Assembly (NCBI RefSeq): GCF_029537235.1
Contig: NZ_CP120638.1
Location: forward strand, 2,978,501 to 3,042,500
DNA length: 64,000 nucleotides
Reading direction: 5' to 3'
From: Rhizobium sp. 32-5/1
GTDB taxonomy: Bacteria > Pseudomonadota > Alphaproteobacteria > Rhizobiales > Rhizobiaceae
Positions within the stretch are counted from its first letter, which is position 1; every line of letters starts with the position of its first letter. Positions 1,924-62,351 of the stretch are shown here, one piece after another. Position numbers and translations under genes: made by a program. The notes beneath the pieces were generated by a model. The model did no database searches. It saw nothing but the letters and a program-made list of their open reading frames with translations, and had not been told where the DNA came from.

Positions 1924-4872
1924 GGAGCTTTCCATTTTCCGGATCGAAGAAGACCGGGCTGCACAGCACGGCCTTGGTATATTCGTTTTTGAGGTCGTTC
2001 CACACGGTGACGTGCTCGCCGTGCCGCCGCAGCCCGCGCTTGACGAGGGCAAGGCCGATCGTCGAGCCGATATCAGGCGAGTAGCAGCTGGAGGAGACGT
2101 AACCCTGGTCGTTTTCCAGCGTCGGCTCTGCGCCGTCTGCAAGAATATGCGAGCCGGTCTTGAACGTGGTGGCGGGATCGATCGGTTTGACGCCGACCAG
2201 GGAGAGCCGGTCCGGGTCAATCATACCTTCGCGCGACAGCATGGCCTTGCCGATGAAGTCCGGCTTGGTGGTGGAAACCATTTTGGCGAAACCGAGATCG
2301 GAAGGAATGACGGTTCCGTTGATTTCGGAATGGGTCACATGACCCTTCTCGATGCGCATCACCCCCAGGGCCTCGACACCGTAAGGGCAGATGCCATGCT
2401 CGCTGCCTGCTTCCATGATGGCATCGGCAATGGCTTCGCCATAGCCGGCGGGCACTGCGAGCTCATAAGCCAATTCGCCGGAAAACGAGATGCGGAACAG
2501 TCGGCCGGAGAGCTTGCCGCCAAACAAGGAGACTTCTTTTGCGCCAAGGAAGGGAAAAGCGGTGTCTGAAATGTCCTCATCGACGAGCTTCTGCAGGATT
2601 GCCCGCGATTTCGGTCCGGCTACGGCAATCTGCGCCCAATGGTCTGTCGAGGAGGCAAACTGGACATCAAGATCGGGCCAGAGTGCCTGGGCGCAGAATT
2701 CCAGATGGTTCATCACGCCGGCGGCATAGGCAGTCGTGGTCGTCATGAAGAAGTGGTTTTCACTGAGCCTGCTGGTCGTGCCGTCGTCGTAGATCATGCC
2801 GTCTTCGCGCAGCATCAAGCCGTAGCGCGCCTTGCCAACCGGCAGTTTCAGGAAGGCGTTGCAATAGACACGGTTGAGGAATTCGGCTGCATCCTTGCCA
2901 AAGATCTCGATCTTGCCGAGCGTCGAGACGTCGCAAATGCTGGCATTCTTGCGGACATTCAGCACTTCGCGGTCGACACTTTCGCGCCATGTCGTCTCGC
3001 CTGCCTTCGGAAACCAGGACGAGCGATACCAGAGGCCGGTTTCGACAAAGACCGCGCCGTGTTTCTTCGCCCAGTCGTGCAGTGGCGATTTGCGCACCGG
3101 CTGGAAATGTTTGCCTCTCGATGTGCCGGCAAGCGCGCCGAAGGAGAGCGGCGTATAGAAGGGCCGGAATGTCGTGGTGCCGACGTAGGCCGGCGAGACC
3201 TTGCGGGCTTCGGCCAGAATCCCGATGGCGTTGATGTTGGACAGCTTGCCCTGGTCGGTCGCCATGCCGTTGGTCGTGTAGCGCTTGGCCAGTTCGACAT
3301 GGCCGTAACCTTCGCCGACGGCGGAAACCAGATCCTTGACGTGCACGTCGTTCTGGTAATCGACGAAGGCCTTGCCCTTCGAGCCGCGCACGAACCAGAG
3401 CGGCTTGGCATGCTCCGGCTTGTCTGTGGTTGGTGCGAAGGCGGCGGTGGCATTGCTGAAGCCGAGGTCCACAGTGATCCGTCGGGCTTTTTCGGCACCA
3501 TCGGCAAGGCAGGCTTCCAGCGTTTCCAGCCCGATTGAAGAGCCGGCCAGCGTCAATCCATCCTGCCGTTCGGGGGCGAGGAAGGCCGATTTGGTTTCCG
3601 ACCAGACAGGCCGCGCGCCGCGATGGCAGGCGAGGTGGATGATCGGGCTCCAGCCGCCGGACATGGCAAGAGCGTCGACCTTGATCGTTTCGGAAGAACC
3701 GGGGCTGGACACAGTGACACCGGACAGCATCTTGCCGCCGCGTGCGTCCTGAACGACCCCGCCTACAATGATGCGAGCCTTGCCGGACCAGTCTTTCGGT
3801 GCATCCGTGCGGCTATCGACGATGGCGGCGACATTCAGGCCTTGCGCCTCAAGGTCGGCTGCGGTCCGATAGCCGGAAGCATTGTTCGTAAAGACAACAG
3901 TCTGCCGTCCAGGCGCGACCGCCTGGCGGTTGAGATAGCTGCGCATGGCGCCTGACATCATCACGCCGGGAATATCGTTGCCGCCGAACACCATTGGCCG
4001 CTCTTCCGCGCCGCTTGTAAGCATTGCCTGTTTGGCGGCAATCCGCCAAAGCCGCTCCATCGGTCGGTTGGGATCGACTTCGCCGACATGCTTCTGTACG
4101 CGCTCGACGCCGCCAAAGACATTGCCGTCATACCAGCCAAACACCGTGGTGCGTGTCATCAGCCGGACATTCGGCAGGCTCCCCAGTTCCGCAAGCGTAC
4201 GGGCAAGCAGTTCCGCCGGCGTCTCCGTTCCGATTGCAGATGTTTCCGACAAGAGCGAACCGCCAAACTCAAAGCCCTCGTCGGCGAAGATGACGCGGGC
4301 ACCGGCGCGGCCGGCTGTCAGGGCTGCGGCAAGACCTGCCGGGCCGGCGCCGATCACCAGCAGATCGCAATGCGCCCAGCACTTTTCATAGGTGTCCGGA
4401 TCGGGCTCATACGTGGCGCGTCCGAGACCTGCCGCCTTGCGGATGATCGGTTCATAGACCTTTTCCCAGAACGCCGCCGGCCACATGAAGGTCTTGTAGT
4501 AGAAACCGGCGCCGAGAAAGGGCGAGAGCAGGCTGTTGACGGCGCCGAGATCGAAATCGACCGAGGGCCAGCGGTTCTGACTTTTGCAACGAGGCCCTGG
4601 TAAAGCTCGGCGACGGTCGCGCGCGTGTTGGGCTCCGTGCGTCCGCCTTCGCCGATCGTCAGCAGGGCATTCGGCTCGGCGGCCCCCGCCGTCAGGATGC
4701 CCCGTGGGCGGTGGTACTTGAACGAGCGGCCGACGAGCTGGCGGCCGTTGGCGAGCAGGGCGGAGGCTACGGTATCGCCGACAAAACCATGCATCGGTTT
4801 TCCGTCGAAGCTGAAATCGAGCGGCTTGTTGCGATCGATACGACCGCCGCTGGACAGGCGGAACGAACTCAT
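1916..4872 (-). CDS. soxA: Sarcosine oxidase alpha subunit (single-base frameshift)
   Basis: About 985 residues once repaired, full length for SoxA. In order: an N-terminal ferredoxin-like region (GFVGDTVASALLANG), an NAD-binding Rossmann region with GAGPAGLAAA, and a C-terminal GcvT-like tetrahydrofolate domain (from about residue 600). The enzyme demethylates sarcosine to glycine, passing the carbon to THF as methylene-THF and producing H2O2. Reading changes frame at the A4 run at 4582-4585 (T4 on the + strand); one extra base restores the expected SQNRWPS and GAVNSLLSP sequence. The gene is otherwise intact, so a sequence error is the likeliest cause. The start ATG overlaps the soxD stop as ATGA. 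Confidence 0.88.
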
Positions 4873-5141
4873 ACGGTCTCTCCGATCGTCGCTGCGTCCA
4901 CGGCAGAATAAATGACATGGGTCATGGTATCACGCTCGACGATCAGCCAGCGGCGGCAGCCGGAGGTGTGGTGCCAGTGCTCCTTGTGCCGTCCCCGCGG
5001 ATTGTCGCGCAGGTAAACATAGGCATGCCATGCCTCTTGCCCGGCATCCGGTGTGGGACGGGTGATCCCGGCGTCGCCGCGAACGGTGAATTCTTCCTTG
5101 GGGCGCGGCCCGCAATGGGGGCAGGCGATCAGGCTGGCCAT
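4869..5141 (-). CDS. soxD: Sarcosine oxidase delta subunit
   Basis: A 90-residue protein with the SoxD hallmarks: an N-terminal CPHCG pair (Cys7, Cys10) and a later HTSGCRRW segment, together supplying the zinc ligands of this small subunit, followed by the conserved ending RDTMTHVI. SoxD is structural and sits on the alpha subunit of heterotetrameric sarcosine oxidase. It lies 9 bases after soxB and overlaps soxA by 4 bases (ATGA), so the subunits are probably made in a coupled fashion. Confidence 0.92.
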   Translation of the reverse strand: MASLIACPHCGPRPKEEFTVRGDAGITRPTPDAGQEAWHAYVYLRDNPRGRHKEHWHHTSGCRRWLIVERDTMTHVIYSAVDAATIGETV

Positions 5142-5150
5142 GTCAGGTCC

Positions 5151-6491: not shown

Positions 6492-7459
6492 ATGATCGCT
6501 GAAGACAGGAAAAACACCCAGAAGATCGGTTTCATCCTGCTGCCGGGCTTTGCGCTGATGTCCTATGCATCGGCGACGGAGCCGTTGCGGGCCGCCAATC
6601 TCCTGGCAGGGCGTGACATCTATACATTGTCGAACCATGGTTCTGACGGGGACCTGTCCTTGTCCTCCTCAGGCGTTCCGGTTCCGATCGATCCCTTGCC
6701 TGGTCGCAGCGTCGGTCTGGATATGGTCTTTGTTTGTGCCGGGGCACACCCGTCGATTGGGATGCGCCCGGCGTTCTTGCCTGCCTTCGTCAGCTTGCCC
6801 GTGATGGCGTGCGCGTTGGCGGCATTTCCGGTGGTCCCTATCTGATGGCGGCGGCCGGTCTGCTTGATGATCGCGATTTCACCATCCACTGGCAGCACGC
6901 TCCCGCTTTGATGGAGGCGTTTCCGCACCTTGCCCCGCGGCAGGCGCGCTATGTGTTGGACGGCAACCGCATCACCTGTGGTGGCGGCGTCGCGCCGCTC
7001 GACATGATGCACGCGCTGATCACCGAGCGTATGGGGTCGGATTTCGCACGCAGGGTCAGTGATTGGTATCTGCACACCCATGTGGAGGCGTCCGGCGCAC
7101 CACAGCGCGGGTCGCTGGCGGAGCGCTACGGCGTCAACCATGCTGGCCTCCTGACGGTGCTGGAAAAGATGGAAGCGACGATCGAAGCGCCGCTCGACCG
7201 GCAGGCCATGGCGGCGCTGGCGGGTGTCTCGCCACGGCATCTCGACCGGTTGTTTTCCGGCCTTATGAAATCCTCTTTCCTTCTCGAATATCGCAAGATC
7301 AGGCTCGATCATGCGCGCCGTCTCCTGCAGCAAAGCCCGCTTTCCATCTCTGAAATCGCATTTGCCACGGGCTTTTCCAGCGCCGGGCATTTTTCACGCA
7401 GCTATCGCTCCGCTTTTGGCGAGCCGCCCCGCAGTAGTCGGCAGGCGCGGACTGGCTGA
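6492..7459 (+). CDS. glxA: GATase1-like AraC-family regulator next to sox genes (single-base frameshift)
   Basis: About 322 residues after repair. The N-terminal half is a DJ-1/PfpI-like (class I amidotransferase-like) sensor domain (IGFILLPGFALMSYASATEPLRAAN); the C-terminal 100 residues are an AraC-type double HTH (YRKIRLDHARRLL, ISEIAFATGFSSAGHFSRSYR). This architecture is that of GlxA and of the pseudomonad regulators GbdR/SouR, which activate glycine betaine and sarcosine genes. Divergent placement beside soxB supports control of the sox operon, perhaps with sarcosine as inducer (inference). The frame breaks at the G4 run 6741-6744; one added G gives CAGGTPVDWDAPG and restores the whole protein. 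Confidence 0.85.
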
Positions 7460-7483
7460 TGGGGTGTGGATAATTTCTTGGCG

Positions 7484-7548: not shown

Positions 7549-8243
7549 ATGGCGAAAAGCAAGGTGAAAGAGGTCGACATCGGCCGCACGACCGACGATG
7601 AGCGACCGGCCCTGAAGGCAGCCTTCCTTCAGGACCCGCATGCCCTGCGCGAACCGAAGGAAAACAATCTCGAAATCGCCATCGGCCATGAGGTGCGCGC
7701 CTTCCGCAAGAAACTCGGGATCACCGTCACCGACCTGGCGACCGCCACCGGCATTTCGCTCGGCATGCTGTCGAAGATCGAAAATGGCAATATCTCACCG
7801 TCGCTGACGACGCTGCAGTCCCTGTCGCGCGCACTCGGCGTTCCGGTCACGGCGTTTTTCCGCCGCTACGAGGAGCCGCGCAATGCCGTCTTCGTCAAGG
7901 CCGGCGAGGGGTGGAACTGGAGCGCCGCGGCACACGCGCCGGGCATCAGTACAATCTGCTTGGCCATATCGACAACAACACCGCTGGTGTCGTCGTCGAG
8001 CCTTATCTTATCACGCTCAGCGCCAACTCCGATACGTTTCCGGCGTTTCAACATGAAGGCATGGAGTTTCTCTACATGCTGGAGGGCGAGGTCGTCTATC
8101 GCCACGGCGACCGGCTCTTCACCATGCGGCCCGGAGACAGCCTGTTTTTCGACGCCGATGCCCGCCATGGCCCGGAAGAACTGGTGAAACTGCCGATCCG
8201 CTATCTCTCGATCATTTCCTATCCGCAGAAGCAGGGGATGTAG
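7549..8243 (+). CDS. XRE-family regulator with C-terminal cupin domain (single-base frameshift)
   Basis: About 231 residues after repair. Residues about 45-105 form an XRE/lambda-repressor HTH (VRAFRKKLGITVTDLATATG, then SLGMLSKIENGNISPSLTTLQSLSRALG); the C-terminal part is a cupin_2 sensor domain (EGMEFLYMLEGEVVYRHGDRL, MRPGDSLFFDA). Such proteins commonly control small-molecule catabolism, and this one precedes glxBCD-glnT-purU, so it is the best candidate for their control. The frame breaks at the G4 run 7908-7911; one added G gives AGEGVELERRGTRAGHQYN and joins the two halves. It is separated from its likely targets by the vapBC pair. Confidence 0.85.
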
Positions 8244-12080: not shown

Positions 12081-12169
12081 CCAACCACAATTTGGCCGTT
12101 GCCTGATCTCCCAAGACAGGTAGCGGCCTTTCCACGAAAAAGTGTCTGAATAATCCAAAGGGGAACACA

Positions 12170-13476
12170 GTGACACTCGATCTTGCTACCTTTGCCAGGG
12201 AACGTGGCATCAAATATTTCATGATCAGCTATACCGATCTGTTCGGTGGCCAGCGGGCCAAGCTCGTTCCGACTGAAGCGATCGCTGACATGCAGAAGGA
12301 CGGTGCGGGCTTTGCGGGCTTTGCCACCTGGCTCGACCTTACGCCCGCGCATCCCGACCTTTTGCACTCCCGGATGCCTCCTCCGTGATCCAGCTTCCCT
12401 GGAAGAAGGATGTCGCCTGGGTCGCGGCCGACTGCGTGATGGAAGACAAGCCGGTCGAACAGGCGCCGCGCGTCATGCTGAAGAGGCTGGTCGCGGAAGC
12501 CGCCAAGGAGGGGCTCCGCGTCAAGACCGGCGTCGAGCCGGAATTCTTCCTGATCTCGCCGGATGGCTCGAAAATCTCCGACGAGTTCGATACGGCCGAG
12601 AAACCCTGCTATGACCAGCAGGCCGTCATGCGCCGCTATGACGTCATTGCCGAAATCTGCGACTACATGCTCGAACTCGGCTGGAAGCCCTACCAGAACG
12701 ACCACGAGGATGCGAACGGCCAGTTCGAGATGAACTGGGAATATGACGACGCGCTGCAGACGGCAGACAAGCATTCCTTCTTCAAATTCATGGTGAAGTC
12801 GGTTGCCGAGAAACACGGCCTTCGCGCCACCTTCATGCCCAAGCCCTTCAAGGGGCTGACCGGCAACGGCTGCCATGCTCATATTTCCGTCTGGGACCTT
12901 GACGGCAAGGTCAACGCCTTTGCTGACAAGGACATGCCGTTCGGCCTTTCGGCCAAGGGCAAGACCTTCCTCGGCGGCATTATGAAGCATGCGTCCGCGC
13001 TTGCCGCCGTCACCAACCCGACGGTCAATTCCTACAAGCGCATCAACGCGCCCCGCACGATCTCCGGCGCTACATGGGCACCGAATACGGTGACATGGAC
13101 AGGCAACAACCGCACCCATATGGTTCGCGTGCCAGGCCCCGGCCGGTTCGAACTGCGCCTGCCGGACGGCGCGGTCAATCCCTATCTCCTGCAGGCGATC
13201 ATCATTGCCGCCGGTCTCAACGGTATCCGGCAGAATGCCGATCCGGGCCGTCACTATGACATCGACATGTACAAGGAAGGCCACACAGTAACCGACGCGC
13301 CGCGGCTGCCGCTCAACCTGCTCGATGCGCTGCGCGAATACGAAAAGGATATCGAGCTTCAGGCCGCTCTGGGAACCGAATTCTCCGCAGCCTATCTCAA
13401 GCTCAAACACGGCGAGTGGAATACCTACTGCTCTCATTTTACCGAATGGGAACGGCAGACGACGCTCGATATCTGA
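12170..13476 (+). CDS. glnT: Type III glutamine synthetase-like ligase GlnT (single-base frameshift)
   Basis: About 435 residues after repair, matching the short GlnT/GSIII type found in rhizobia. N-terminal beta-grasp (FMISYTDLFGGQRAKLVP), then the GS catalytic domain with KTGVEPEFFL (metal-binding Glu), GNGCHAHISVWD (the His of the ATP/Mg site) and NNRTHMVRVPGPGRFELRLPD. Relatives include gamma-glutamylmethylamide synthetase, so the amine substrate could be ammonia or methylamine; the sarcosine context makes either plausible. The frame breaks at the T4 run 12360-12363; one added T gives HPDLFALPDASSVIQLPW and restores the protein. Confidence 0.87.
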
Positions 13477-20578: not shown

Positions 20579-20650
20579 TGCACAACACGCGATTGCTTTC
20601 CTTGCCGCCAGCGGAAAGGATGCCGATCAAAACCGCACTGGATGAATGCG

Positions 20651-36351: not shown

Positions 36352-36404
36352 GCCCTATCTCCGTTGCAGATGTACAGCGTCGGAGCCTGCGTTATAGTTG
36401 GCCC

Positions 36405-36793
36405 ATGACCGACATGCCACCCGCCAGCCTTCGCCCCGTCCTGCGCATCGATTTTCCGAATGCTGAAAGGTTGGGGCGTGGCAAGATCATGCTTCTCGAA
36501 CATATCCGTGAGACCGGCTCGATCTCTGCGGCGGGACGCGCCATGGACATGTCCTATCGGCGTGCCTGGCTCTTGGTCAGTGCGCTGAATACGATGTTCT
36601 CGGAACCCTCGGTCGAATCCCAGCGCGGCGGAAAGCAGGGGGCGGAGCAGCCGTCACGCCGTTTGGCGAGGAACTGATCCGCCGGTTCCGGGCGATGGAG
36701 GCGAAAATCGCCGCGACCATGGCCGACGACCTCGCTTGGCTCGAGGACAATCGCCGCAGCGAGACAGTCACGGGTTCAGCGCCACGCTCTTGA
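36405..36793 (+). CDS. Single-domain ModE-type molybdate regulator (single-base frameshift)
   Basis: About 129 residues after repair: a winged-helix of ModE N-terminal type (GRGKIMLLEHIRETGSISAA, then MDMSYRRAWLLVSALN) with the conserved VTPFGEELIRRFRAME end. The C-terminal molybdate-binding (TOBE) domains of full ModE are absent, as in many rhizobial homologues. The frame breaks at the G5 run 36638-36642; one added G gives GGKQGGGAAVTPFGEEL. Its 3' end overlaps the convergent modC by 26 bases. It is the obvious candidate to control modABC. Confidence 0.83.
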
Positions 36794-39475: not shown

Positions 39476-39616
39476 ATCCATCGAGAATGGCTAGCGCTAT
39501 ATTTCTGGAAACATAATGACGGTCTCGGTGGATCAGGCTCAGGATTGATGCTTGTCTTGACCTCCGCGTGCACTAAAATCCAGAAAAAGGCATGCAGTTG
39601 CAGGGAGAACAGCCGG

Positions 39617-46778: not shown

Positions 46779-49226
46779 ATGAGCCGCGAAAAACTGGTCG
46801 TGATCGGCAATGGCATGGCGCCGGGCCGCATGCTGGAGGAATTGTTCGAAAAGGCACCCGGCCTTTACGACGTGACGATCTTCAACGCCGAGCCGCGCGT
46901 CAACTATGACCGTATCATGCTCTCGCCGGTGCTATCCGGCGAAAAGGCCTATGAGGACATCATCATCCATGGCGACGACTGGTATCGCGATCATGGCGTG
47001 ACGCTGCACCGCGGTGCCAGGGTCAGCGGCATCGATCGGGTTGCAAAGACCGTGACGGCCGAAAACGGGATCACAGTTTCCTATGATCGTCTGGTGATCG
47101 CAACGGGTTCGCTGCCGTTCATCATTCCGGTGCCCGGCCATCAACTGCCCGGCGTTCTGGCCTATCGCGATCTCGACGATGTCGAGAAGATGCTCGATAT
47201 CGCCAAGAACAAGGGCAAGGCAATCGTCATCGGCGCCGGCCTGCTGGGCCTGGAAGCCGCCTATGGTCTGAAGCGCCAGGGCATGGACGTGACCGTCGTG
47301 CACCTGATGCCGACGATCATGGAACGCCAGCTCGATCCGGCGGCAGCCTATCTGCTTGAAAAGGCGCTGACCGAACGTGGCATAAACATCATCACCAAGG
47401 CCGATACCAAGGCGATCCTCGGCACGACCCGTGTCGAAGGCGTCGAACTCAAGGATGGCCGCATTCTGGACGGCGACATGGTCGTCATGGCAGTGGGCAT
47501 CCGGCCGGCATCGGCGCTCGCCAAGGAAGCCGGCGTCGCCGTCAACCGCGGCATCGTCGTCGATGACGGGATGATGACGTCGGACCCCAGCATCTACGCG
47601 CTCGGCGAATGCGCCGAACATCGCGGCACTTGCTACGGCCTCGTCGCGCCGCTCTATGAAAGCGCCCGCGTCCTTGCCGACCGGCTCTGCGGCGGCAGTG
47701 GTGAATATGGCGGCTCCGTCGTCAACACCAAGCTCAAGGTCACCGGCATCAACCTGTTCTCCGCCGGTGATTTTGCCGAAGGCGACGACCGCGAGGAAAT
47801 CGTCCTGCGCGACGCGACGGCCGGTGTCTACAAGCGGCTGGTCCTGAAGAACGACCGCATCATCGGCGCCGTGCTCTATGGCGAAACGGCCGATGGCCCC
47901 TGGTATTTCGACCTGATGAAGCGCAGCGTACCGGTCACCGAAATGCGCGACACGCTGATCTTCGGCCAGTCCTATCAGGGCGGCACCACGCTCGACCCGC
48001 GGGCGGCTGTCGCTGCCCTGCCGGCGGAAGCAGAAATCTGCGGCTGCAATGGTGTGTGCAAGGGCAAGATCGTCGACACGATTTCCGCCAAGGGTCTGAC
48101 TACGCTGGACGACGTGCGCGCCCACACCAAGGCGTCCGCCTCCTGCGGCTCCTGCACCGGTCTGGTCGAGCAACTGATGTCGATCACGCTCGGCGACGCG
48201 TTCAATCCGCATGCGGTCAAGCCGATGTGCGGCTGCACCGATCTCGGCCACAGCGATGTGCGCCGGCTGATCATGGCCAAGCAGTTGAAGACCATTCCGG
48301 CCGTCATGCAGGAGCTGGAGTGGAAGACCTCCTGCGGCTGCGCCAAGTGCCGTCCGGCGCTCAACTACTACCTCGTCTGCGACTGGCCGGACGAATATGC
48401 CGACGACTACCAGTCGCGTTTCATCAACGAGCGCGTCCACGCCAACATCCAGAAGGACGGCACCTATTCCGTCGTTCCGCGCATGTGGGGCGGCATGACG
48501 AGCTCGTCGGAACTGCGGGCGATCGCCGACGTTGTCGACAAGTTCGAAATTCCGGCCGTCAAGGTCACCGGCGGCCAGCGCATCGACATGCTGGGAATCA
48601 GGAAGGAAGACCTGCCGGCCGTCTGGGCCGATCTCGGAAAGGCCGGCTTCGTCTCGGGCCAGGCCTATGCCAAGGGACTTCGCACCGTGAAGACCTGCGT
48701 CGGGACCGACTGGTGCCGCTTCGGCACGCAGGATTCGACCGGGCTCGGCATCCGCATCGAAAAGTTCATGTGGGGCTCCTGGACGCCTGCCAAGCTGAAA
48801 ATGGGCGTCTCCGGCTGTCCGCGAAACTGTGCGGAGGCCACCTGCAAGGATATCGGCGTGATCTGCGTCGATTCAGGTTTTGAAATCCACTTTGCCGGTG
48901 CCGCCGGCCTCGACATTAAGGGCACGGAGGTTCTCGGGCTGGTGAAGACCGAGGACGAAGCGCTCGAATATATCGTGGCGTTGACCCAGATGTATCGCGA
49001 GCAGGGTCATTATCTCGAGCGCATATACAAATGGGCAAAGCGCACCGGTCTCGACGAAATCCGCCGCCAGATCATGACCGATACGGAAAAACGCCAGGGT
49101 TACTACGAGCGTTTCGTGCTGTCGCAGAAGGTCGCCCAGGTCGATCCCTGGTCGGAGCGCGTTTCCGGCAAGGACAAACACGAATTCAAGCCGATGTCCG
49201 AACTCAAGCTGGAGGCCGCCGAATGA
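46779..49226 (+). CDS. nirB: NADH-dependent nitrite reductase large subunit
   Basis: An 815-residue NirB. Domains in order: FAD/NAD-binding oxidoreductase (residues 1-400; VVIGNGMAPGRMLEEL, IVIGAGLLGLEAAYGLKRQG), a BFD-type [2Fe-2S] region (CGCNGVCKGKIVD and CGSCTGL), a second cysteine region (CGCTD, TSCGCAKCRPALN), then the ferredoxin-like and siroheme/[4Fe-4S] domains with ligands in KTCVGTDWCRFGTQD and GVSGCPRNCAEATCKDIG. It reduces nitrite to ammonium with NADH in the cytoplasm. AGGGAGAAGACG precedes the ATG. It overlaps nirD by 4 bases. Confidence 0.95.
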   Translation: MSREKLVVIGNGMAPGRMLEELFEKAPGLYDVTIFNAEPRVNYDRIMLSPVLSGEKAYEDIIIHGDDWYRDHGVTLHRGARVSGIDRVAKTVTAENGITVSYDRLVIATGSLPFIIPVPGHQLPGVLAYRDLDDVEKMLDIAKNKGKAIVIGAGLLGLEAAYGLKRQGMDVTVVHLMPTIMERQLDPAAAYLLEKALTERGINIITKADTKAILGTTRVEGVELKDGRILDGDMVVMAVGIRPASALAKEAGVAVNRGIVVDDGMMTSDPSIYALGECAEHRGTCYGLVAPLYESARVLADRLCGGSGEYGGSVVNTKLKVTGINLFSAGDFAEGDDREEIVLRDATAGVYKRLVLKNDRIIGAVLYGETADGPWYFDLMKRSVPVTEMRDTLIFGQSYQGGTTLDPRAAVAALPAEAEICGCNGVCKGKIVDTISAKGLTTLDDVRAHTKASASCGSCTGLVEQLMSITLGDAFNPHAVKPMCGCTDLGHSDVRRLIMAKQLKTIPAVMQELEWKTSCGCAKCRPALNYYLVCDWPDEYADDYQSRFINERVHANIQKDGTYSVVPRMWGGMTSSSELRAIADVVDKFEIPAVKVTGGQRIDMLGIRKEDLPAVWADLGKAGFVSGQAYAKGLRTVKTCVGTDWCRFGTQDSTGLGIRIEKFMWGSWTPAKLKMGVSGCPRNCAEATCKDIGVICVDSGFEIHFAGAAGLDIKGTEVLGLVKTEDEALEYIVALTQMYREQGHYLERIYKWAKRTGLDEIRRQIMTDTEKRQGYYERFVLSQKVAQVDPWSERVSGKDKHEFKPMSELKLEAAE

Positions 49227-49578
49227 ACACGCATATGAAAAGCTGGTTCGACGTCGGATCGATTTCCGACATTCCGCGACGCGGCGCACGCTGCGTCAAG
49301 ACCGGAACCATGACGGTCGCCGTGTTCCGCACCGCCGACGACAAGGTCTTTGCGCTGGAGGACAAATGTCCCCACCGCAACGGCCCTCTCAGCCAGGGCA
49401 TCGTCCATGACGGCTGCGTCACCTGCCCGCTGCACAACTGGGTCATCTCGCTCGAAACCGGCCGTGCACAGGGTGCCGACGAAGGTGCGACGCTGTCCTT
49501 CCCGGTGCGGCTGGAGGGGATCGCATCCTCCTGTCGCTGATGCCGCAGGCAGCGGAAGCGGTCATCGCGGCGGAATAG
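49223..49578 (+). CDS. nirD: Nitrite reductase small subunit, Rieske type (single-base frameshift)
   Basis: About 118 residues after repair. The Rieske [2Fe-2S] ligand motifs are complete, DKCPHRNGPLSQG and VTCPLHNW, unlike E. coli NirD, which lacks them; this is the cluster-bearing type common in actinobacteria and rhizobia. The frame breaks at the G4 run 49516-49519; without repair the protein ends early (SSCR), and one added G gives LEGDRILLSLMPQAAEAV with a stop at 49576. ATGA overlap with nirB. It supports electron transfer in the NirBD complex. Confidence 0.9.
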
Positions 49579-49607: not shown

Positions 49608-51092
49608 ATGGGCGAGCACAGCGATACAAACGGCATGATCTCGAACACGTTCACGCAGGTGGCCGGATCGACCGGGCGCAAACGTTCCGAGCGGGTGCAG
49701 CCGCTTTCCGTCCTGCCCGTCTTCTTGCCGCTCTCCTGCCGCCGGGTAATCGTTGCCGGGGGTACGGATGCGGCCGCCTGGAAAGCCGAACTTCTTGCGG
49801 CGACTGGCGCCGATGTTATCGTTTTTTCGCCTGACAACGAGGAGTTGTCCGGCGACATGCGCGCCCTGCTGGAGGAGGGCAGGGTGCGCCTTTGTTCCCG
49901 TCCGTGGTCGTTGGCTGATTTCGACGGTGCCGCAATCGCCATTGCCGATGCCGAGAGCGAGGAGGAGGCCATCGCTTTCGCCGATGCGGCGAAGGCAGCA
50001 GGCGTGCCCTGCAATGTCATCGACAAGCCGGCCCATTGTCAGTTCCAGTTCGGCACGATCGTCAACCGCTCGCCGGTCGTGGTCGGCATCTCCACCGATG
50101 GCGCGGCACCGATCCTCGGACAGGCGATCCGTCGGCGCATCGAGACGCTTTTGCCGCCGTCGCTGAAGGATTGGGCGGGGCTTGCCCGCACGCTGCGCGA
50201 CACGGTGGCGGAAAAACTCACCCCCGGCCCGCAGCGCCGTGCCTTCTGGGAGCGCTTTGTCGATCGCTCGTTTGGCGGGCAGGGCCCGGACGCCGGCAGC
50301 GTCATGGAGATAAACGATGATCTTTCGGCCGTGAAGCACACAGGCAATGGTCGCGTGACCCTGGTCGGAGCCGGTCCGGGCGACGCGGAACTGCTGACGT
50401 TGAAGGCGATGCGGGCGCTGCAATCGGCCGATGTCATCCTGTTTGATGACCTGGTGTCCGACGAGGTGCTGGAACTTGCCCGCCGCGAGGCCAAGCGCAC
50501 GCTGGTCGGCAAACGCGGCGGCCGCGAAAGCTGCAAGCAGGACGATATCAACCGCATGATGCTGACCTTCGCCCGGCAGGGCAAACGCGTCGTGCGGCTG
50601 AAGTCCGGCGATCCGGCCGTCTTTGGCCGCGCCGGCGAGGAAATCGCTTTTCTGGAACGGCACGGTATCGCCGTCGATATGGTGCCGGGCATCACGGCGG
50701 CCAGTGCCATGGCTTCGCGCCTCGGCGTCTCGCTGACGCACCGCGACCATGCCCAGTCCGTCCGCTTCGTGACAGGCCATTCGCGGCACGGTGCCTTGCC
50801 GTCCGATCTCGACTGGCGGGCGATTGCCGATCCGCGCACGACGACCATCTTCTACATGGGCGGCCGCACGGCCGCTGAAATATCGGAGCGCCTGCGCGAC
50901 CATGGCCTGGATCCGCAGACGCCGGTGGCGATCTGTTCCTCGGTCTCGCGGGCCAGCGAGAAACGCTGGTTCGGAACGGTCGCGGGGATGGCGGACGGTA
51001 TCGGCGAAATACGCTATGACGAACCGGTGCTGATCGCCGTCGGCGGCGTCTTCGCGCGGCAACAGCAGCAGGCGGTGGCGCTCAGCGCATGA
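49608..51092 (+). CDS. cysG: Siroheme synthase (uroporphyrinogen-III methyltransferase/dehydrogenase/ferrochelatase)
   Basis: A 494-residue two-part enzyme. The N-terminal 200 residues (SVLPVFLPLSCRRVIVAGG, then QFGTIVNRSPVVVGISTDGAAPILGQAIRRRIE) are the precorrin-2 dehydrogenase/ferrochelatase part; the C-terminal 260 (GRVTLVGAGPGDAELLTLKA, KSGDPAVFGRAGEEI, VPGITAASAMASRLG) are the SAM-dependent uroporphyrinogen-III methyltransferase. It makes siroheme for NirB; its precorrin-2 is also the precursor for the cob genes downstream. AGGAGACGGGTGGC precedes ATG 49608. The GTG/ATG overlap with nasA is 4 bases. Confidence 0.93.
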   Translation: MGEHSDTNGMISNTFTQVAGSTGRKRSERVQPLSVLPVFLPLSCRRVIVAGGTDAAAWKAELLAATGADVIVFSPDNEELSGDMRALLEEGRVRLCSRPWSLADFDGAAIAIADAESEEEAIAFADAAKAAGVPCNVIDKPAHCQFQFGTIVNRSPVVVGISTDGAAPILGQAIRRRIETLLPPSLKDWAGLARTLRDTVAEKLTPGPQRRAFWERFVDRSFGGQGPDAGSVMEINDDLSAVKHTGNGRVTLVGAGPGDAELLTLKAMRALQSADVILFDDLVSDEVLELARREAKRTLVGKRGGRESCKQDDINRMMLTFARQGKRVVRLKSGDPAVFGRAGEEIAFLERHGIAVDMVPGITAASAMASRLGVSLTHRDHAQSVRFVTGHSRHGALPSDLDWRAIADPRTTTIFYMGGRTAAEISERLRDHGLDPQTPVAICSSVSRASEKRWFGTVAGMADGIGEIRYDEPVLIAVGGVFARQQQQAVALSA

Positions 51093-53289
51093 ATATCCAC
51101 GCCGCCTCCACCCGCAAGGTCAAGAGTGCCTGCCCCTATTGCGGCGTCGGCTGCGGCATCGTCATGGAGGTGGCCGGCAACCGCGTCGTCAAGGTCACCG
51201 GCGACAAGGATCACCCGGCAAACCGCGGGCGGCTCTGCACCAAGGGCATGACGAGCGCGCAGGCAATCGAGGCCACGGGGAGGCTCGACCGTGCCTTCAT
51301 CCGCGCCGATCGCCATGGCGAGCAGGTGCCGGTGGCGCTGGAACTTGCACTGTCACAGACAGCCGACCGGCTGAGGGCGATCCTCGATCAGGACGGGCCG
51401 GACGCCATCGCGCTATATATTTCCGGCCAGATGTCGATCGAGGCGCAATATCTCGCCAACAAGCTCGCCAAGGGCTTCATCCGCACGCAGCACATCGAAT
51501 CCAATTCGCGCCTCTGCATGGCAAGTGCTGCGAGCGGCTACAAGCTTTCGCTCGGCGCCGACGGCCCGCCCGGCTCCTATGACGATATCGACAGCGCGGA
51601 TCTCTTCCTCATCATCGGCTCCAACATGGCCGATTGCCATCCCGTCCTGTTCCTGCGGCTGATGGACCGCGTCCGGCAGGGTGCGAAACTGATCGTCGTC
51701 GATCCGCGCCGGACCGCGACGGCGGAAAAGGCAGACCTGTTCCTGCAGATCAAGGCCGGAACGGATCTCGCACTTCTCAACGGTCTCCTGCGTCTGCTTG
51801 CCGAAAACGGTCGGATCGATCAGGATTTCATCGCGGCGCATACGGAAGGCTGGGCGATAATGCCGGATTTCCTCAGCACCTACGCGCCGGACGCCGTCGC
51901 CGTGACCACCGGGCTTTCGGCAGAGGATATTCGCGCGGCTGCGGAGATGATCGGCACGGCCGGCAATTGGGTCAGTCTCTGGACCATGGGGCTGAACCAG
52001 AGCACGCACGGCACCTGGAGCACCAATGCGATCTGCAACCTGCATCTCGCCACCGGCACCATCTGCCGGCCGGGCAGCGGGCCGTTTTCGCTGACAGGCC
52101 AGCCGAATGCCATGGGTGGCCGCGAAATGGGCTATATGGGCCCGGGTCTGCCGGGCCAGCGTTCGGCGCTCGTCGATGCCGACCGACGCTTCGTCGAAGA
52201 GCGCTGGGCTCTTCCGAAAGGAACCATCCGCGCGGATGGCGGCGGTGGCACGATCTCCCTGTTCGAGGACATGGGCTCCGGTCGAATAAAAGCCTGCTGG
52301 ATCATCTGCACCAATCCGGTCGCCTCCGTCGCCAATCGCGCGACGGTCATCGAAGGATTGAAGAAGGCCGAGCTGGTGATCACCCAGGACGTCTTTCTCG
52401 ATACAGAAACCAATATCTATGCCGATATCATCCTGCCCGGCGCGCTCTGGGCCGAGGCTGAGGGCGTGATGGTCAATTCCGAGCGCAATTTGACGCTCAT
52501 GGGCAAGGCCGTGGAGCCGCCCGGAGAGGCGCGGCCCGACTGGTGGATCATCGCGGAGATCGCCTGTCGTATGGGCTATTCGAAGGCCTTCACCTATACC
52601 TCGGCGGCGGAGGTGTTCGAGGAGCTTTCCGGCTTTGCCAATGCCAAGACTGGCTACGACATTTCCGGTGCCAGCTACAGGCGGCTGGAGGAGACGCCGC
52701 TGCAATGGCCGCTGCCAAAGGGGGCAGCAGTCGCAATCCGGTGCGCTACCGTGATCCCGCAGCGGGGATAAATTTCCCGACGGCCAGCAGTAAGGCGCAG
52801 TTTTTTGCGCGACCGCATCTCGATCCGTCGGAAATGCCTGACGATGCCTTCCCCTTCGTGTTGAACACCGGTCGCCTGCAGCACCAGTGGCACACGATGA
52901 CCAAGACGGGAAAGATCCAGACGCTGAACAAGCTCAATCCCGGCCCCTTCGTCGAGGTCAATCCGCTGGATGCACAGGCCTTCGGCGTGTCCGATGGGGA
53001 CCGGGTCGAAATCCGCTCGCGGCGCGGTTTTGCCATCCTGCCGGCGGTGGTGACCGACCGCGTGCTGCCGGGCGCCTGTTTTGCACCCTTTCACTGGAAC
53101 GACATCTTCGGCAACGACGTGGCGGTCAATGCCATAACCTGCGATGCCGTCGATCCGATCTCCCTGCAGCCGGAACTGAAGGTCTGCGCTGTTGCGCTGA
53201 CGCCTGTCATGCAGCCCGGCAAGGTGTTGCCGTCGGCAGAACCGATCCTGCAAAAGTCCTGCAGCCGGTATCGGCCGGTGGGTGGATGA
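51089..53289 (+). CDS. nasA: Assimilatory nitrate reductase catalytic subunit (single-base frameshift)
   Basis: About 733 residues after repair. The N-terminal [4Fe-4S] site is SACPYCGVGCGIVMEV with the fourth Cys in RGRLCTKGM; the molybdopterin-guanine-dinucleotide domains follow (IESNSRLCMASAASGYK, LIIGSNMADCHPVLF, TGTICRPGSGPFSLTGQPNAMGG), and a C-terminal MGD-binding domain ends near residue 720. The BFD-type [2Fe-2S] tail of Klebsiella NasA is absent. The frame breaks at the G5 run 52720-52724; one added G gives PLPKGGSSRNPVRYRD and the complete C-terminus. It reduces nitrate to nitrite in the cytoplasm, probably with electrons from the flavoprotein encoded next. Confidence 0.92.
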
Positions 53290-55184
53290 CTGATGGCGCG
53301 GATGCCTTTGCCAGTGCCGTCGGGATCAAAAGACCGGCGCTTGTCGTTCTGCTTGACGAGGAGCAGGCCTATCTTGAAGGCTTTATCCTCGGCCTGCGTG
53401 CGGATGCCCGCTCGTTTCCATCAGGTGTTCCTGTCTTGCCGTCGAACGCTCCGCTCTCTGTGGAGAAGCGCTTGCGGCTGAACGGCCTCCTGGCCGGACT
53501 GTTTTCGCGCGACTGGTCTGATGCGGCGCCCTCGACGGGTATGCAGGCTTCCGTTAAGGAAAAGTGCAACGAAGGCATCCTGATGCTCTGGTCCTCGCAG
53601 ACCGGGACGGCGGAGGAACTGGCGAAACGCTGTGCTGCCGATCTTGCCGAGCATGGCCTGAAAATCCGCCTCACCTGCATGGAGGATTGCACGGCAGAGG
53701 CACTTTCCCGCGAAAACCTGCTGCTGATCGTCACCAGCACGTTTGGCGATGGGGACGCACCGGACAATGGCGCGGCCTTCTGGCAAGGGCTGCAAAACAG
53801 CAAGACAGCCCTACCGGAGCTGGGTTTCGCGGTACTCGCGCTCGGCGATTCGAGTTACGGCGAGTTCTGTGGGTTCGGCAGGCGGATCGACGAGACGCTG
53901 GAAGCTCTGGGTGCCCGCCGTCTCGTGCCGCGCACCGATTGCGACGGCGATGGCGAAGACAAGGTCGATGGCTGGCTCGACGGGCTCATCGGGGCACTGA
54001 CAGCCGAAGACCCTAATCCGCCGAAAATGGCGCCGGTTGCCAGACCAGCCTTCGCGCCCGTTTCCAGTCCGGCTCGCGATCTTTTGCAGCGGGTTCGCCT
54101 GATCCGCAATCTCAGGCTCAATGCAACGGGCTCCGCCAAGGAAACCCGCCAGATCGGTTTTGATCTGCGCGACACCGGGCTCGACTATGAAACCGGCGAT
54201 GCGCTGGGAATTCGTCCCCGCAATTGCCCGGATCTTGTCGCGGAAATTCTGGAGGCTGCCGGGCTATCGGCGCAAAAAGCCGTCGATGTTGCCGATGTCG
54301 GAGAGATGTCGCTCACCGAAGCCCTGACCGATCATTTCGAAATCGCCCGCATCACGCCGGATTTTCTTCGTTTCGTCGCCGAGCGGACAAAGGACGAGAC
54401 GTTGAACGCGCTGCTTCATCGCGACAGCAAGGCGGCGCGCGAAAAATGGCTTTGGGGCCGTCAGGTGGCCGACGTGCTGGCTGAACATCGGCTCGACGTC
54501 GATGCTGGTGATTTCCTCTCCAGCCTGAAACGCCTGCAGCCGAGGCTCTACTCGATTTCGTCAAGTCCCAGAGCGCATGCCGGGGAGGTTCATCTCACCG
54601 TCTCGACCGTGCGTTATGCCCATCAGGGCCGTTCGCGCCACGGCGTCTGTTCCGCATTTCTTGCAGACCGCGCCGAGCAAACCGGGGCATCGATATTCGT
54701 TCGTCCGGCGCCAGCATTCCGTCTGCCTACAGACGGTGACAGGCCGGTGGTAATGATAGGTCCCGGCACCGGGGTCGCACCTTTCCGCGGTTTTCTGGCC
54801 GATCGGGCAGCGACGGGTGCAACGGGTCGCAACTGGCTGTTCTTCGGCGAGCAGCATGAAAGCACCGATTTCTATTACCGCGAGGAGCTTGTGGACTGGC
54901 AGCGCTCAGGCGTGCTGACCCGCCTCGATACCGCCTTTTCCCGGGATAGCGCAGACAAGGTCTATGTGCAGGATCGCATGCTCGAACAAGGCGCGGATCT
55001 CTGGCGCTGGCTGGAAGAAGACGCTTCGATCTATGTCTGCGGCGATGCCTCGCGCATGGCGCGGGATGTCGATGCGGCGCTGAAATCGATCGTTGCCGAG
55101 CACGGCCGGATGACCGGCGAGAATGCAGCCGAGTACGTTTCGAGGCTCTCACGCGAAAAGCGCTATCTCCGCGACGTCTATTGA
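53286..55184 (+). CDS. CysJ-like diflavin reductase, putative electron donor to NasA
   Basis: A 632-residue diflavin protein. Residues 1-95 are a CysJ-type N-terminal region (PLSVEKRLRLNGLLAGLFSRDW); 96-240 are flavodoxin (LMLWSSQTGTAEELAKR, STFGDGDAPDNG, LGDSSYGEFCGFG); then the FAD-binding RLYSISSSP and GVCSAFLAD, and the NADPH-binding MIGPGTGVAPFRGF with C-terminal YLRDVY. In sulfite reductase CysJ passes electrons from NADPH to CysI; here it overlaps nasA by 4 bases with no cysI nearby, so transfer to nitrate reductase (in place of NasB/NasC) is the natural inference. Confidence 0.88.
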   Translation: MTDGADAFASAVGIKRPALVVLLDEEQAYLEGFILGLRADARSFPSGVPVLPSNAPLSVEKRLRLNGLLAGLFSRDWSDAAPSTGMQASVKEKCNEGILMLWSSQTGTAEELAKRCAADLAEHGLKIRLTCMEDCTAEALSRENLLLIVTSTFGDGDAPDNGAAFWQGLQNSKTALPELGFAVLALGDSSYGEFCGFGRRIDETLEALGARRLVPRTDCDGDGEDKVDGWLDGLIGALTAEDPNPPKMAPVARPAFAPVSSPARDLLQRVRLIRNLRLNATGSAKETRQIGFDLRDTGLDYETGDALGIRPRNCPDLVAEILEAAGLSAQKAVDVADVGEMSLTEALTDHFEIARITPDFLRFVAERTKDETLNALLHRDSKAAREKWLWGRQVADVLAEHRLDVDAGDFLSSLKRLQPRLYSISSSPRAHAGEVHLTVSTVRYAHQGRSRHGVCSAFLADRAEQTGASIFVRPAPAFRLPTDGDRPVVMIGPGTGVAPFRGFLADRAATGATGRNWLFFGEQHESTDFYYREELVDWQRSGVLTRLDTAFSRDSADKVYVQDRMLEQGADLWRWLEEDASIYVCGDASRMARDVDAALKSIVAEHGRMTGENAAEYVSRLSREKRYLRDVY

Positions 55185-56081: not shown

Positions 56082-57463
56082 ATGGAACGGAAAGCTGTGC
56101 ATCTGGCAATGACGGAACAAGCGACAGGCTACGACGGCGCCGACATGCGGCGTGGCGCCTGTCCGACGCTGGCCGCGCCGATGCAGACCGGCGACGGTCT
56201 TCTGGTGCGTCTTCGTCCGGTTCGTCCGGGTTTTGCCCTTCCGGAGATAGTCGCGCTTGCGAAGGCCGCCCGTCGCTTCGGCAACGGCATCCTTGAGGTG
56301 ACGGCCCGCGGCAATCTGCAGATCCGTGGCCTCACCTTCGAGACGGTGTCCTCTCTTACCGCCGCCATCGCCGATGCGGAGATCAGGATTACCGAAGGGG
56401 TCGCCATCGAGACACCGCCGCTTGCCGGCATCGATCCGACCGAGTTTGCCGATCCGTTGACGCTGGCTGCCGAATTGCGCGCTGCGATCACGGCGCATCG
56501 GCCAGCGCTTGTCCTTGCTCCAAAACTCTCGATCATCATCGACGGCGGCGGTCGCCTCCATATGGGTGAAACGAGCGCCGACATACGGCTGCGCGCGGTT
56601 GGGGTTGGTGCCGCCCTGTCCTGGCTTCTGAGCCTTGCCGGGACGGAACGAACGGCCAAGCGGGTTGCCATGCTTGCGCCTGATGCCGTCATCCCCGCCG
56701 TCTTGAATGTGCTTTCCGAACTCGCACGCCTCGGCGGCAATGTGCGGGGACGGGACCTGGATGCGGAGATGCTGGCCCGTTCGATCGGCTCCGGAACGAT
56801 TTTTGACGAGGTCGCATTCCCGGATGCGGCCCCGCTGGCAACAGGCGTCCATGGTTGCGGCAGCAGGGGTCCGGTGCTCGGCCTTGGGCTTGCTTTCGGT
56901 CAGACGGATGCCGAAAGCCTGATCGCACTTGTCGCAGAGTTGGAACGGCTCGGCGCCGATGAAATCCGGCTGGCGCCGGGGCATGCCTTGCTCGTTCCGG
57001 GCCTGAAGGGCGAGGAAATCGCGCAGGCACAGGCGCATGCTCTGGCCTTTGGTTTCCGGATTTCGCCTGACGATCCCGGCAATCATATTGCTGTGTGCGC
57101 CGGAACGGGGCCTGCCGTTCGGCGCTTCTCGACACGAAGGCTGTTGCAAGGTTGTTCATCGACGAGGCACCGGACCTGCTCGATGGGTCCTTGTCCGTGC
57201 ATCTTTCCGGCTGTGCCAAGGGCTGTGCAAAACCTTCGGCCGAGACACTGACCATGCTGGGTGCGCCATTAGGCTATGGGCTTGTCGTAAATGGCCCTGC
57301 GTCCGCCGTCCCCAACGCCTACATCGAACAAAAGACCATAAAAACCGCAATCGGGCATCTCGGCGCCCTGGTGCGGCAGAACAAACAGGCTGGCGAATCG
57401 GCTCTATCCTGCCTTACACGGCTTGGACCGGATGCGACCATCGCAGCGCTGCAACAGGGATAG
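56082..57463 (+). CDS. cobG: Precorrin-3B synthase (single-base frameshift)
   Basis: About 460 residues after repair, a member of the nitrite/sulfite reductase fold with one [4Fe-4S] centre. The N-terminal half has RRGACPTLAAPMQTGDGLLVRLR and EVTARGNLQIRG; the cluster ligands are in CAGTGACRSALLDT and LSGCAKGCAKPS. CobG hydroxylates precorrin-3A with O2, defining the aerobic route. The frame breaks at the G4 run 57107-57110; one added G creates the first ligand motif. ATG 56082 follows AAGGACGG. It is followed by cobH after 2 bases. Confidence 0.9.
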
Positions 57464-58832: not shown

Positions 58833-59593
58833 GGGGAACGCTCTATGTCGTCGGCACCGGCCCCGGTGGTCCGCAGCAGATGACGCCTGAAGCGCTGGAT
58901 GCCGTTTCGAAAGCCACCGAGTTCTTCGGCTACGGTCCCTATCTCGATCGCCTGTCTCTGCGGCCGGACCAGACCCGCATCGCGTCTGACAACCGCGAGG
59001 AACTCGATCGTGCGCAGGCTGCACTGGCGCGTTCTGCATCCGGCGTTGACGTCTGCGTCGTCTCGGGCGGTGATCCTGGTGTCTTCGCCATGGCCGCGGC
59101 CGTCTGCGAGGCGATTGATGCCGGCCCGCCGGAATGGCGGGATCTCGATCTGGTCGTTACACCCGGCGTCACCGCCATGCTCGCCGTTGCCGCTCGGATC
59201 GGCGCGCCGCTCGGCCATGATTTTTGTGCGATTTCGCTGTCGGATAATCTGAAACCATGGGAGGTGATAACCCGCCGTCTGCGGCTGGTTGCCGAGGCCG
59301 GATTGGTGATCGCGCTTTATAATCCCATCAGCAAGGCCCGGCCGTGGCAGCTCGGTCAGGCCTTCGATATCCTGCGCACGGTACTGCCGGCATCGACGCC
59401 GGTCATTTTCGGTCGCGCGGCCGGACGGCCGGACGAGCGCATGACCGTCATGCCGCTTGCCGAGGCTGATCCGGCGGTGGCCGACATGGCAACCTGCGTC
59501 GTCATCGGCTCGGCCCTGACGCGCATCATCGCGCGGCCCGGCAGGCCGGATCTCGTCTATACGCCGCGCTTCATCTCCGGGGAGAGCCAGTGA
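58829..59593 (+). CDS. cobJ: Precorrin-3B C17-methyltransferase
   Basis: A 254-residue methylase: LYVVGTGPGGPQQMTPEALDAV, CVVSGGDPGVFAMAAAVCEAI, VVTPGVTAMLAVAARIGAPLG and HDFCAISLSDNLKPWEVI are diagnostic of CobJ/CbiH, which methylates C17 and contracts the ring. ATG 58829 overlaps cobI by 4 bases. Its 3' end overlaps the convergent cobK by 37 bases. Confidence 0.93.
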   Translation: MRGTLYVVGTGPGGPQQMTPEALDAVSKATEFFGYGPYLDRLSLRPDQTRIASDNREELDRAQAALARSASGVDVCVVSGGDPGVFAMAAAVCEAIDAGPPEWRDLDLVVTPGVTAMLAVAARIGAPLGHDFCAISLSDNLKPWEVITRRLRLVAEAGLVIALYNPISKARPWQLGQAFDILRTVLPASTPVIFGRAAGRPDERMTVMPLAEADPAVADMATCVVIGSALTRIIARPGRPDLVYTPRFISGESQ

Positions 59594-60325
59594 TCGATCC
59601 GGTCGAGAGCCTCAGCCAGCGTTCCGACCGACGGCATGTCGGCCGGGTGCTGCCGCTCGACCATCACGACCTCGATGCCGCGGTCTCGGGCAGCGACGAT
59701 CTTGCTATAGGTGGCCGCCCCACCGCTGTTCTTGGCAACGATGACGTCGATGCGATTATCTTTCAGAAGCCGATATTCGTCGGCAGTCTCGAAGGGACCG
59801 CAGGCGAGGATATAACGAACATGCGGCAACTCGAGCGGCGGAGTGACGGGATCGACGCTGCGCACGATATAGTGATGCTGCGGCGCGTTCTCGAACTGGA
59901 ACGCTTCCTGCCGGCCGATCGCGAGAAACACGTTTCTGGGCTCAGGCCCGAGCGCAGCCACGGCATCCGTCATGGTGAAAACGGACGTCCAGCGATCACC
60001 CGCCTGCCGCTCCCATGCGGGGCGTCGCAGGGCAAACGCCCCAATGCCGGCCAGCTTGGCTGCTACGGCGGCATTGGCGGAGATGCGCGCGGCAAGGGGT
60101 GCGTGGCGTCGATCAGCAGGTCGAAATGATTGTCCCGAAGAAAGTCGGCCAGCCCCTCGGCTCCGCCAAAGCCGCCACTGCGCGTCGGAACGGGTTGCGC
60201 CATGGGTTCGGCGGTGCGGCCGGCCAGCGAAAGCAGCACGGCACAATCGGCGCGGTCTTTCAGCCTGTCCGCCAATTGCCGGGCCTCGGTTGTTCCCCGA
60301 GTATCAGAATGCGGTGTCTGCCCAT
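59557..60325 (-). CDS. cobK: Precorrin-6A reductase (two single-base frameshifts)
   Basis: About 256 residues after repair: a two-lobed NADPH-dependent reductase starting [20 protein letters not shown] and containing DLLIDATHPFAARISANA, VRSVDPVTPPLELPHV and NSGGAATYSKI, all standard CobK features. The frame breaks at the C4 run 60295-60298 and at A2 60094-60095 (+ strand); adding one base at each restores the family sequence. It reduces precorrin-6A to 6B. It is the only cob gene on the minus strand: the start codon shares the four bases CATG with the cobL start, and the 3' end runs into cobJ. Confidence 0.88.
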
Positions 60326-61565
60326 GCGTGATGGTTCCGTGGTTTCCCTTGATCTTCAAGCGCCCTGGCTGACGGTTATCGGCCTGGGAGAAGATGGTCT
60401 AGCTGGTCTCGGCGATGCGGCCAAGCGCTGCATCGCATCGGCGACTGTGATCTTCGGCGGCGCCAGGCATCTGGAGCTTGCGGGTCCGTTGATCACAGGC
60501 GAGGCCCATGTCTGGGCAAGCCCGTTTGAGCGTTCGATCGATGCGATCCTTTCCCTGCGGGGTTCACCCGTCGTGGTGCTGGCCTCCGGCGATCCGCTGC
60601 ACTTCGGTGTGGGTGCTACCTTGGCGCGCCGCATCGATCCCGCAGAAATGCGGGTCCTGCCGTTCCCGTCCTCTTTCAGCCTCGCTGCCTCGAAGCTCGG
60701 CTGGGCGCTGCAGGAGACGCAGACCGTTTCACTGCACGGGCGCCCCGTCGATCTCATCCGCCCGCTTCTGCACCCGGGTGTGCGGGTGCTTGCACTGACT
60801 TCGGATGCACAGGCCCCTGCCGCTCTGGCAAAACTCCTCACGGAGAGCGGGTTCGGTCAGTCAAGGTTTACGGTTCTCGAGGCGCTGGGTGGTTCGAACG
60901 AGCGCTTGACGCACCATATCGCCGCGCAATTCTCGCAGGCCGACGTCAATGCCCTGAATGTCTGTGCGGTCGAGGTCGTGGCCGACAAGGGTGCGCGCAT
61001 TCTGACGCTTGCGGCCGGCCTTGACGACGCGCTGTTCGAGCATGACGGGCAAATCACCAAGCGGGAAATCCGCGCGCTGACGCTGTCCGCGCTTGCGCCG
61101 CGGCGTGGCGAATTGCTTTGGGATATCGGTGCCGGATCCGGCTCGATCGCCATCGAATGGATGCTGACTGATCCGTCCATGCGGGCGTTGGCAATCGAGG
61201 TTTCAGCCGAGCGCGTCGCGCGGATCGGTCGCAATGCCGCCCGCTTTGGCGTCCCCGGCCTTACGGTCGTTCACGGTGCTGCCCCTGATGCGCTGTCCGG
61301 CCTGACGCCGCCCGATGCAATTTTCATCGGCGGCGGCGGCAGTCGCGATGGCATGATGGACGCGGCACGTTCTGTCTTGCGCGAAGGCGGTCGTCTGGTT
61401 GCCAATGCGGTGACGACCGAAATGGAAGCGGTGCTTCTGGCGAGCCATGTCCGCTTTGGCGGCACGTTGATCCGCATCGACATTGCAAGGGCATCGCCCG
61501 TCGGCTCGATGACCGGCTGGCGTCCGGCGATGCCCGTGACGCAATGGTCGTGGACAAAAGAATAG
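60324..61565 (+). CDS. cobL: Precorrin-6B C5,15-methyltransferase (decarboxylating)
   Basis: A 413-residue fusion of two methylase domains: an N-terminal CbiE-like part ([35 protein letters not shown]) and a C-terminal CbiT-like part with the SAM motif [19 protein letters not shown] and [15 protein letters not shown]. It methylates C5 and C15 and decarboxylates the C12 acetate. ATG 60324 is inside CATG shared with the divergent cobK start; a slightly later start is possible because the first nine residues are not conserved. Confidence 0.92.
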
Positions 61566-61587
61566 AAGACGTCTGAGAGGAAATGAA

Positions 61588-62351
61588 ATGACAGTGCATT
61601 TTATCGGCGCCGGCCCTGGCGCTGCGGACCTGATCACGGTGCGCGGCCGCGACCTGATCGCCCGTTGCCCGGTCTGCCTCTATGCAGGTTCGATCGTTTC
61701 GCCCGACCTTTGCAATATTGCCCACCCGGCACCCGCATCGTCGATACGGCGCCGATGTCGCTTGATGAGATCGAGGCGGAATATGTGAAGGCTGCGGCCG
61801 ATGGCCATGACGTGGCGCGGCTGCATTCCGGCGATCTCTCCGTCTGGAGCGCAGTTGCCGAGCAGGTCCGCCGACTGGAAAAGCATGGCCTTGATTATAC
61901 GATGACACCTGGTGTGCCGGCTTTTGCTGCTGCCGCCGCCACGCTCGGCCGCGAGCTGACGATCCCGGCTGTCGCGCAAAGCCTTGTGTTGACCCGCGTT
62001 TCCGGCCGCGCGTCGCCAATGCCCAATGCCGAGACCCTTGCAGGCTTCGGCGCCACCGGCTCGACACTTGCCATCCATCTGGCGATCCACGCGCTGGGGC
62101 AGGTCGTCACGGAACTGACGCCGCTCTATGGCGCGGATTGCCCCGTCGCCATCGTCGTCAAGGCATCCTGGCCGGACGAGCGCGTCGTGCGCGGTACGTT
62201 GGCCGATATCGAGGCCAAGGTTGCGGCCGATCCGATCGAACGCACGGCGCTGATCTTCGTCGGCAAGACCCTTGGAGCTACCGATTTTCGAGAGAGTGCG
62301 CTCTACGATGCTGCCTATCAGCGTCGCTTCCGCGGCCGTGACGGCCTTTAG
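61588..62351 (+). CDS. cobM: Precorrin-4 C11-methyltransferase (single-base frameshift)
   Basis: About 254 residues after repair: [62 protein letters not shown] and [18 protein letters not shown] are the CobM/CbiF pattern. It adds the C11 methyl to precorrin-4. The frame breaks at the T3 run 61709-61711; one added T restores PDLLQYCPPG. AGAGGAAATGAA precedes ATG 61588. It ends convergently on phaG with a 4-base overlap, so no terminator space exists there. Confidence 0.9.

Follow-up and report, generated by a model that had tools for sequence, protein, structure and literature searches.

The window, a 64,000-nucleotide stretch of Rhizobium sp. 32-5/1 (C1:2978501-3042500), contains a series of genes whose reading frames are interrupted by the apparent loss of a single base, and the question is whether these genes are decaying in the organism or have been misread in the assembly. 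The surrounding Pararhizobium-like genome comprises 5.62 Mb in three contigs, with a completeness of 87.47%, compared to 99 to 100% for 23 of the 24 other genus members listed. The closest named NirB relative found was Pararhizobium antarcticum NAQVI 59 (NirB 96% identical), which belongs to an environmental group. Around the window, 320 kb of the main contig, C1, was colinear with one P. antarcticum contig, with 255,459 bases aligned in pieces of approximately 77 to 91% identity. As an observation on the reference itself, its contig G023:C74 (240,094 bases) carried a GTP_EFTU-family gene and a CcrM-type methylase twice each, mirrored and in opposite orientation, an arrangement that may reflect an inverted duplication introduced during assembly.

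Breaks were searched for by frameshift-aware protein-to-DNA alignment, with the P. antarcticum genes as the reference. The comparison covered the 320 kb including the window, a block of 60 kb that holds rpoBC together with the S10 cluster, and ten pairs of 20-kb stretches. On C1, 393 genes were aligned, with 8 at <65% identity dropped; after 60 codons at the start and 12 at the end of each gene had been set aside, 109,471 codons remained for the interior count. The counting of gaps in DNA alignments was dropped as a sole measure, since it yielded a large number of apparent gains as well as breaks at the ends of genes. The gene-end calls checked in the window sat 5' of start codons, and protein alignment with omission of the gene ends was therefore adopted. 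Because the reference genes are taken as open frames, the search sees breaks on the side of the window genome only, but losses and gains are affected alike. When the direction was reversed and P. antarcticum was searched with the genes of the window genome, 35 gains, 11 losses, and 1 double gain appeared on the P. antarcticum side; these were mostly the same sites mirrored and therefore do not form an independent control.

All 17 frame breaks listed in the initial annotation were recovered as one-base losses relative to P. antarcticum: 14 within the gene set of the wider count, the one at 61709, and the two in cobK through an explicit minus-strand alignment. The losses at 34514 and 60094 were first picked up from the reading frames. 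An additional loss near 53257, in a gene already hit at 52720, raised the total to 18, while the number of broken genes remained at fourteen (Table 1). The cobK gene (precorrin-6A reductase) was found to lie on the minus strand, a correction to the initial annotation. Past each break in the window, protein similarity carried on in the new frame. The lesions were absent from P. antarcticum, whose frames were open at the same sites.

Table 1. Genes of the window interrupted by single-base losses (names marked † are those of the initial annotation)
Gene or product	Coordinates	Strand	Losses
soxA-like† (2Fe-2S domain found)	1916..4872	-	one, near 4582-4587
glxA†	6492..7462	+	one, near 6741
HTH (XRE-type) regulator	7549..8242	+	one, near 7908-7912
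Glutamine synthetase family gene	12169..13476	+	one, near 12360
Binding-protein-dependent transport permease	17319..18271	+	one, near 18117-18123
Dihydroxyacetone kinase, DhaK and DhaL parts	20627..22294	+	three, near 21280, 22036, and 22145
UgpC-type ABC transporter ATPase	34428..35494	+	one, near 34514
modE†	36379..36793	+	one, near 36638
ung†	39545..40317	+	one, near 39976
nirD, Rieske-type small subunit	49223..49578	+	one, near 49516
Nitrate reductase with CysJ-like part	51089..55184	+	two, near 52712-52724 and 53257
cobG†	56082..57463	+	one, near 57107
cobK	59557..60326	-	two, near 60095 and 60295-60298
cobM-type tetrapyrrole methylase	61588..62354	+	one, near 61709

The initial description of these losses as all lying in short homopolymers was slightly too strong: a run of 4 or 5 was present at or beside 15 of the 18 sites, while 22036 and 61709 had runs of 3 only and 34514 had no run longer than 2. 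The accompanying statement that no repair needs the removal of a base held for the coding DNA of the window, which contained 18 single-base losses and no gains (15 and none, respectively, in its 45.3 kb of interior coding DNA), but it did not hold genome-wide, where 11 single gains were counted. The +1 calls in the window at 13583, 29332, 46763, and 55234 all precede the first start codons of their own frames (13638, 29336, 46779, and 55256), as does a further -1 call at 35579 (start codon at 35614).

In P. antarcticum, the nitrate reductase and the CysJ-like flavoprotein part were observed as a single reading frame of 1366 aa. The P. antarcticum counterpart of the window gene is predicted from its sequence to join a nitrate reductase to a reductase-type domain of its own.

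The cause of the breaks was not local to the window. Over the 109,471 interior codons of C1, the events detected comprised 79 losses and 11 gains of a single base plus 2 double losses, in 76 genes, and the single losses were distributed as 15 in 45.3 kb for the window, 36 in 141.3 kb for its flanks, and 28 in 141.8 kb for the other C1 regions compared. Interior single-base events occurred in all twelve C1 regions except two, the leuS region and one 3-kb region. Of the 11 gains, the one at residue 65 of gene 3 in the "infB" region probably lies 5' of a start. In-frame stops numbered only 7 among the same interior codons. The broken genes were longer than the intact ones (mean, 483 versus 340 aa), as expected if breaks strike at random. 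On C2, the 5.1 kb aligned gave a single call each of -1, -2, and +1, too small a sample for a rate, and for C3 a close counterpart was not found; the event counts cover C1.

In control genes, the same search returned no breaks, and in two control genomes at most one event. The P. antarcticum NirB and NirD proteins were aligned to 88 other loci, of which 85 nirB and 73 nirD alignments passed, and 0 breaks were found in the 76,585 codons of these genes, compared to one in the window nirD; the control set was fetched by NirB similarity and leans toward intact nirB. Set beside these loci, the 15 interior losses of the window exceed what chance would give. In the rpoBC-S10 region, interior events numbered 0 in genome G016, 1 in G003, 7 in the window genome, and 41 in G014. 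The sole G003 event was a -2 call common to G014 at the same residue and is probably an alignment quirk. With gene ends included, the controls G016 and G003 gave 4 and 6 calls. Of 100 kb compared with G013, a single 2.7-kb piece that exceeded the 800-base limit was colinear.

Genome G014, of the same genus, was itself unusual, with a completeness of 78%, 6 contigs, and an rpoB match in four pieces. Its 41 interior events fell within 29.3 kb (loci L142-L144), and 28 of them were gains. We suspect that G014 is another faulty assembly, which looks worse than that of the window genome and differs from it in error type.

The single losses were concentrated at homopolymers. A run of at least 4 identical bases lay within 6 bases of 53 of the 79 losses, compared to approximately 11.5% of random positions in the fetched DNA, while the remaining 26 had no run of 4 within that distance. 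By base, 35 of the 53 run-associated losses were in G or C and 18 were in A or T, as raw counts unadjusted for run frequency. Long runs were correspondingly scarce in the aligned DNA, with 7 G/C runs of at least 6 here versus 38 in P. antarcticum and 0 versus 6 A/T runs of at least 8. The A/T runs of 5 and 6 were not reduced in this comparison (409 versus 395 and 82 versus 71, respectively). When the 53 runs were written as purines, the preceding base was T in 1, C in 23, A in 17, and G in 12 (raw counts, with no background); the scarcity of T before the run may reflect base-caller context or composition.

The gains followed a different pattern. GANTC is the methylation motif of CcrM, and GANTC-type sites accounted for 10 of the 11 gains, compared to 1 of the 79 losses and 0.85% of random positions. 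The gains took the form CGAGATC or CAGAATC on either strand, which can be read as GAATC with one extra base, and only 1 of the 11 fell outside these forms. The forms were defined after the sites had been seen, and the binomial value of 2e-20 is therefore descriptive only. The window genome encodes an uninterrupted CcrM orthologue (PDB 6pbd, E = 1.1e-159), and GANTC is probably methylated in Rhizobium sp. 32-5/1. No excess of substitutions was observed at GANTC in the window genome, and none of the 28 gains in G014 was at such forms.

Depletion of a second motif, GTCGAC, was also considered as a base-calling substitution. In the aligned DNA, it occurred 155 times here versus 262 in P. antarcticum. 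This candidate was dropped because changes of the outer bases were mostly in third codon positions (97, versus 11 in first positions), which looks like real evolution. GTCGAC was below expectation in G013 too (29 versus 71 expected), and its scarcity may come from genuine avoidance of a SalI-type site or from altered codon use.

The genes valS, infB, rplD, secE, and tmk are essential, and each was found to be hit. The tRNA synthetase gene valS was split into parts of 757 and 307 aa versus 1037, and the PF00133 matches included no additional copy, while infB had lost a base at residue 722 of its 896. For these two genes the names are putative, as judged from family, length, and start sequence. 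The rplD and secE genes, with one family match apiece in the window genome, also carried losses, and in rplD the switch of frame could be read off directly; both losses, in the rpoBC-S10 region, fall outside the interior count. A gain cut tmk into two adjacent pieces.

The frame breaks therefore most likely do not belong to the organism itself, and the broken genes almost certainly represent reading errors of the sequencing machine rather than real damage. The artefact proposed in the initial annotation is supported by the spread of the breaks over C1, the interruption of essential genes, the shortening of long G/C runs, the clean controls, and the low number of stops (7). Homopolymer compression, as proposed there, would account for the losses at runs, but it is probably not the sole cause, as there are gains at GANTC as well. 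The combination of losses at runs and gains at a methylation motif points to an unpolished nanopore assembly. Taken as a whole, platform included, it is very probable that the deposited consensus is an unpolished nanopore assembly of methylated DNA in which systematic errors of long-read base calling persist; the platform was presumably Oxford Nanopore, with no short-read polishing done. Under this model, homopolymers from about four bases upward would often be called one base short, producing the -1 breaks, and GANTC sites would occasionally be called one base long, producing the rarer +1 breaks. Both types of error would survive consensus building, being systematic and uncorrected by accurate reads, and the genes would be intact in the cell. 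The 26 losses away from runs of 4, the undiminished A/T runs of 5 and 6, and the lack of a substitution excess at GANTC count against this model.

An artefact of another origin, either an older single-molecule or flow-based chemistry or a polishing step that deletes too readily, appears improbable. Several platforms lose bases at runs, and the available part of PMC8011154 reports that polishing tools raised the number of deletions. The location of 10 of the 11 gains on the CcrM motif, however, agrees with base calls made from the current in a pore, and the assembly of 5.6 Mb into three contigs speaks for long reads.

Real gene decay, in which the deletions are truly carried and the genes are pseudogenes, is less probable still, and we regard it as very unlikely. 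In its favor, the broken genes were slightly less conserved than the intact ones (0.886 versus 0.899, p = 0.09), and dhaK carries three losses. The rpoBC-S10 region had 2 interior losses versus 6.7 expected from its runs (P = 0.036); this shortfall is in the direction expected under real selection, yet it is one such value among twelve regions and therefore a weak indication. Against decay, the single-copy essential genes were broken and not spared. Mixed lesions including nonsense codons would be expected, but 79 losses were accompanied by just 7 interior stops and 1 gain outside the GANTC forms. The persistence of protein similarity in the new frame after every window break also speaks against it, as does nirD, which was unbroken in 73 of 73 other aligned loci. 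That the breaks are real but tolerated through programmed frameshifting or transcriptional slippage is the least credible reading, for although many sites are at short runs, the P. antarcticum frames are open at the same sites, the breaks hit unrelated genes, and runs of four G are short for transcriptional slippage.

With misread bases as the preferred explanation, the earlier warning about pseudogene calls is borne out: with the breaks most likely artefactual, both the pseudogene counts and the low completeness of the window genome are unreliable. The Rhizobium sp. 32-5/1 assembly, unfit for counting dead genes until checked with accurate reads, must not be used to conclude that nitrate assimilation, cobalamin synthesis, or any other function has been lost. 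It is possible, though somewhat doubtful, that finished genomes built from nanopore reads alone bear a readable footprint of the methylome, such that GANTC gains mark CcrM and breaks relative to a close relative reveal both the methylated motifs and the platform. If general, gains at GANTC would offer a cheap test to spot such assemblies.

Both components of the pattern have precedents. The sections available from PMC8011154 describe nanopore systematic errors as mainly homopolymer indels that shift frames, and those from PMC12007338 place deletion errors mostly after runs of 4 to 5. The window genome resembles these cases in its one-base losses at short runs, its many frameshifted genes, and its depressed completeness. 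It differs in base, since A and T were commonest in the Kastor example, as far as the excerpted literature goes, whereas 35 of the 53 run sites here, in raw counts, were G/C. For modified DNA, the excerpts of PMC10687267 tie mismatch errors to modification, and those of PMC12392509 give two potential methylation-related errors with GANTC while most methylated motifs were error-free. In Agrobacterium, SNP errors of nanopore assembly were found near motifs such as GANTC, according to the portion available of PMC12710330; here, in contrast, single-base gains without a substitution excess were found at that motif. One-base gains at GANTC are not described in the available portions of PMC12710330, PMC12392509, PMC8011154, PMC12007338, and PMC10687267. 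What the window genome shares with the cases in the excerpts of PMC12710330 and PMC12392509 is an association of errors with GANTC in a bacterium of the same family that carries CcrM. Indels at runs and errors at methylation motifs are thus both already known, and the broken genes of the window are most likely an ordinary artefact.
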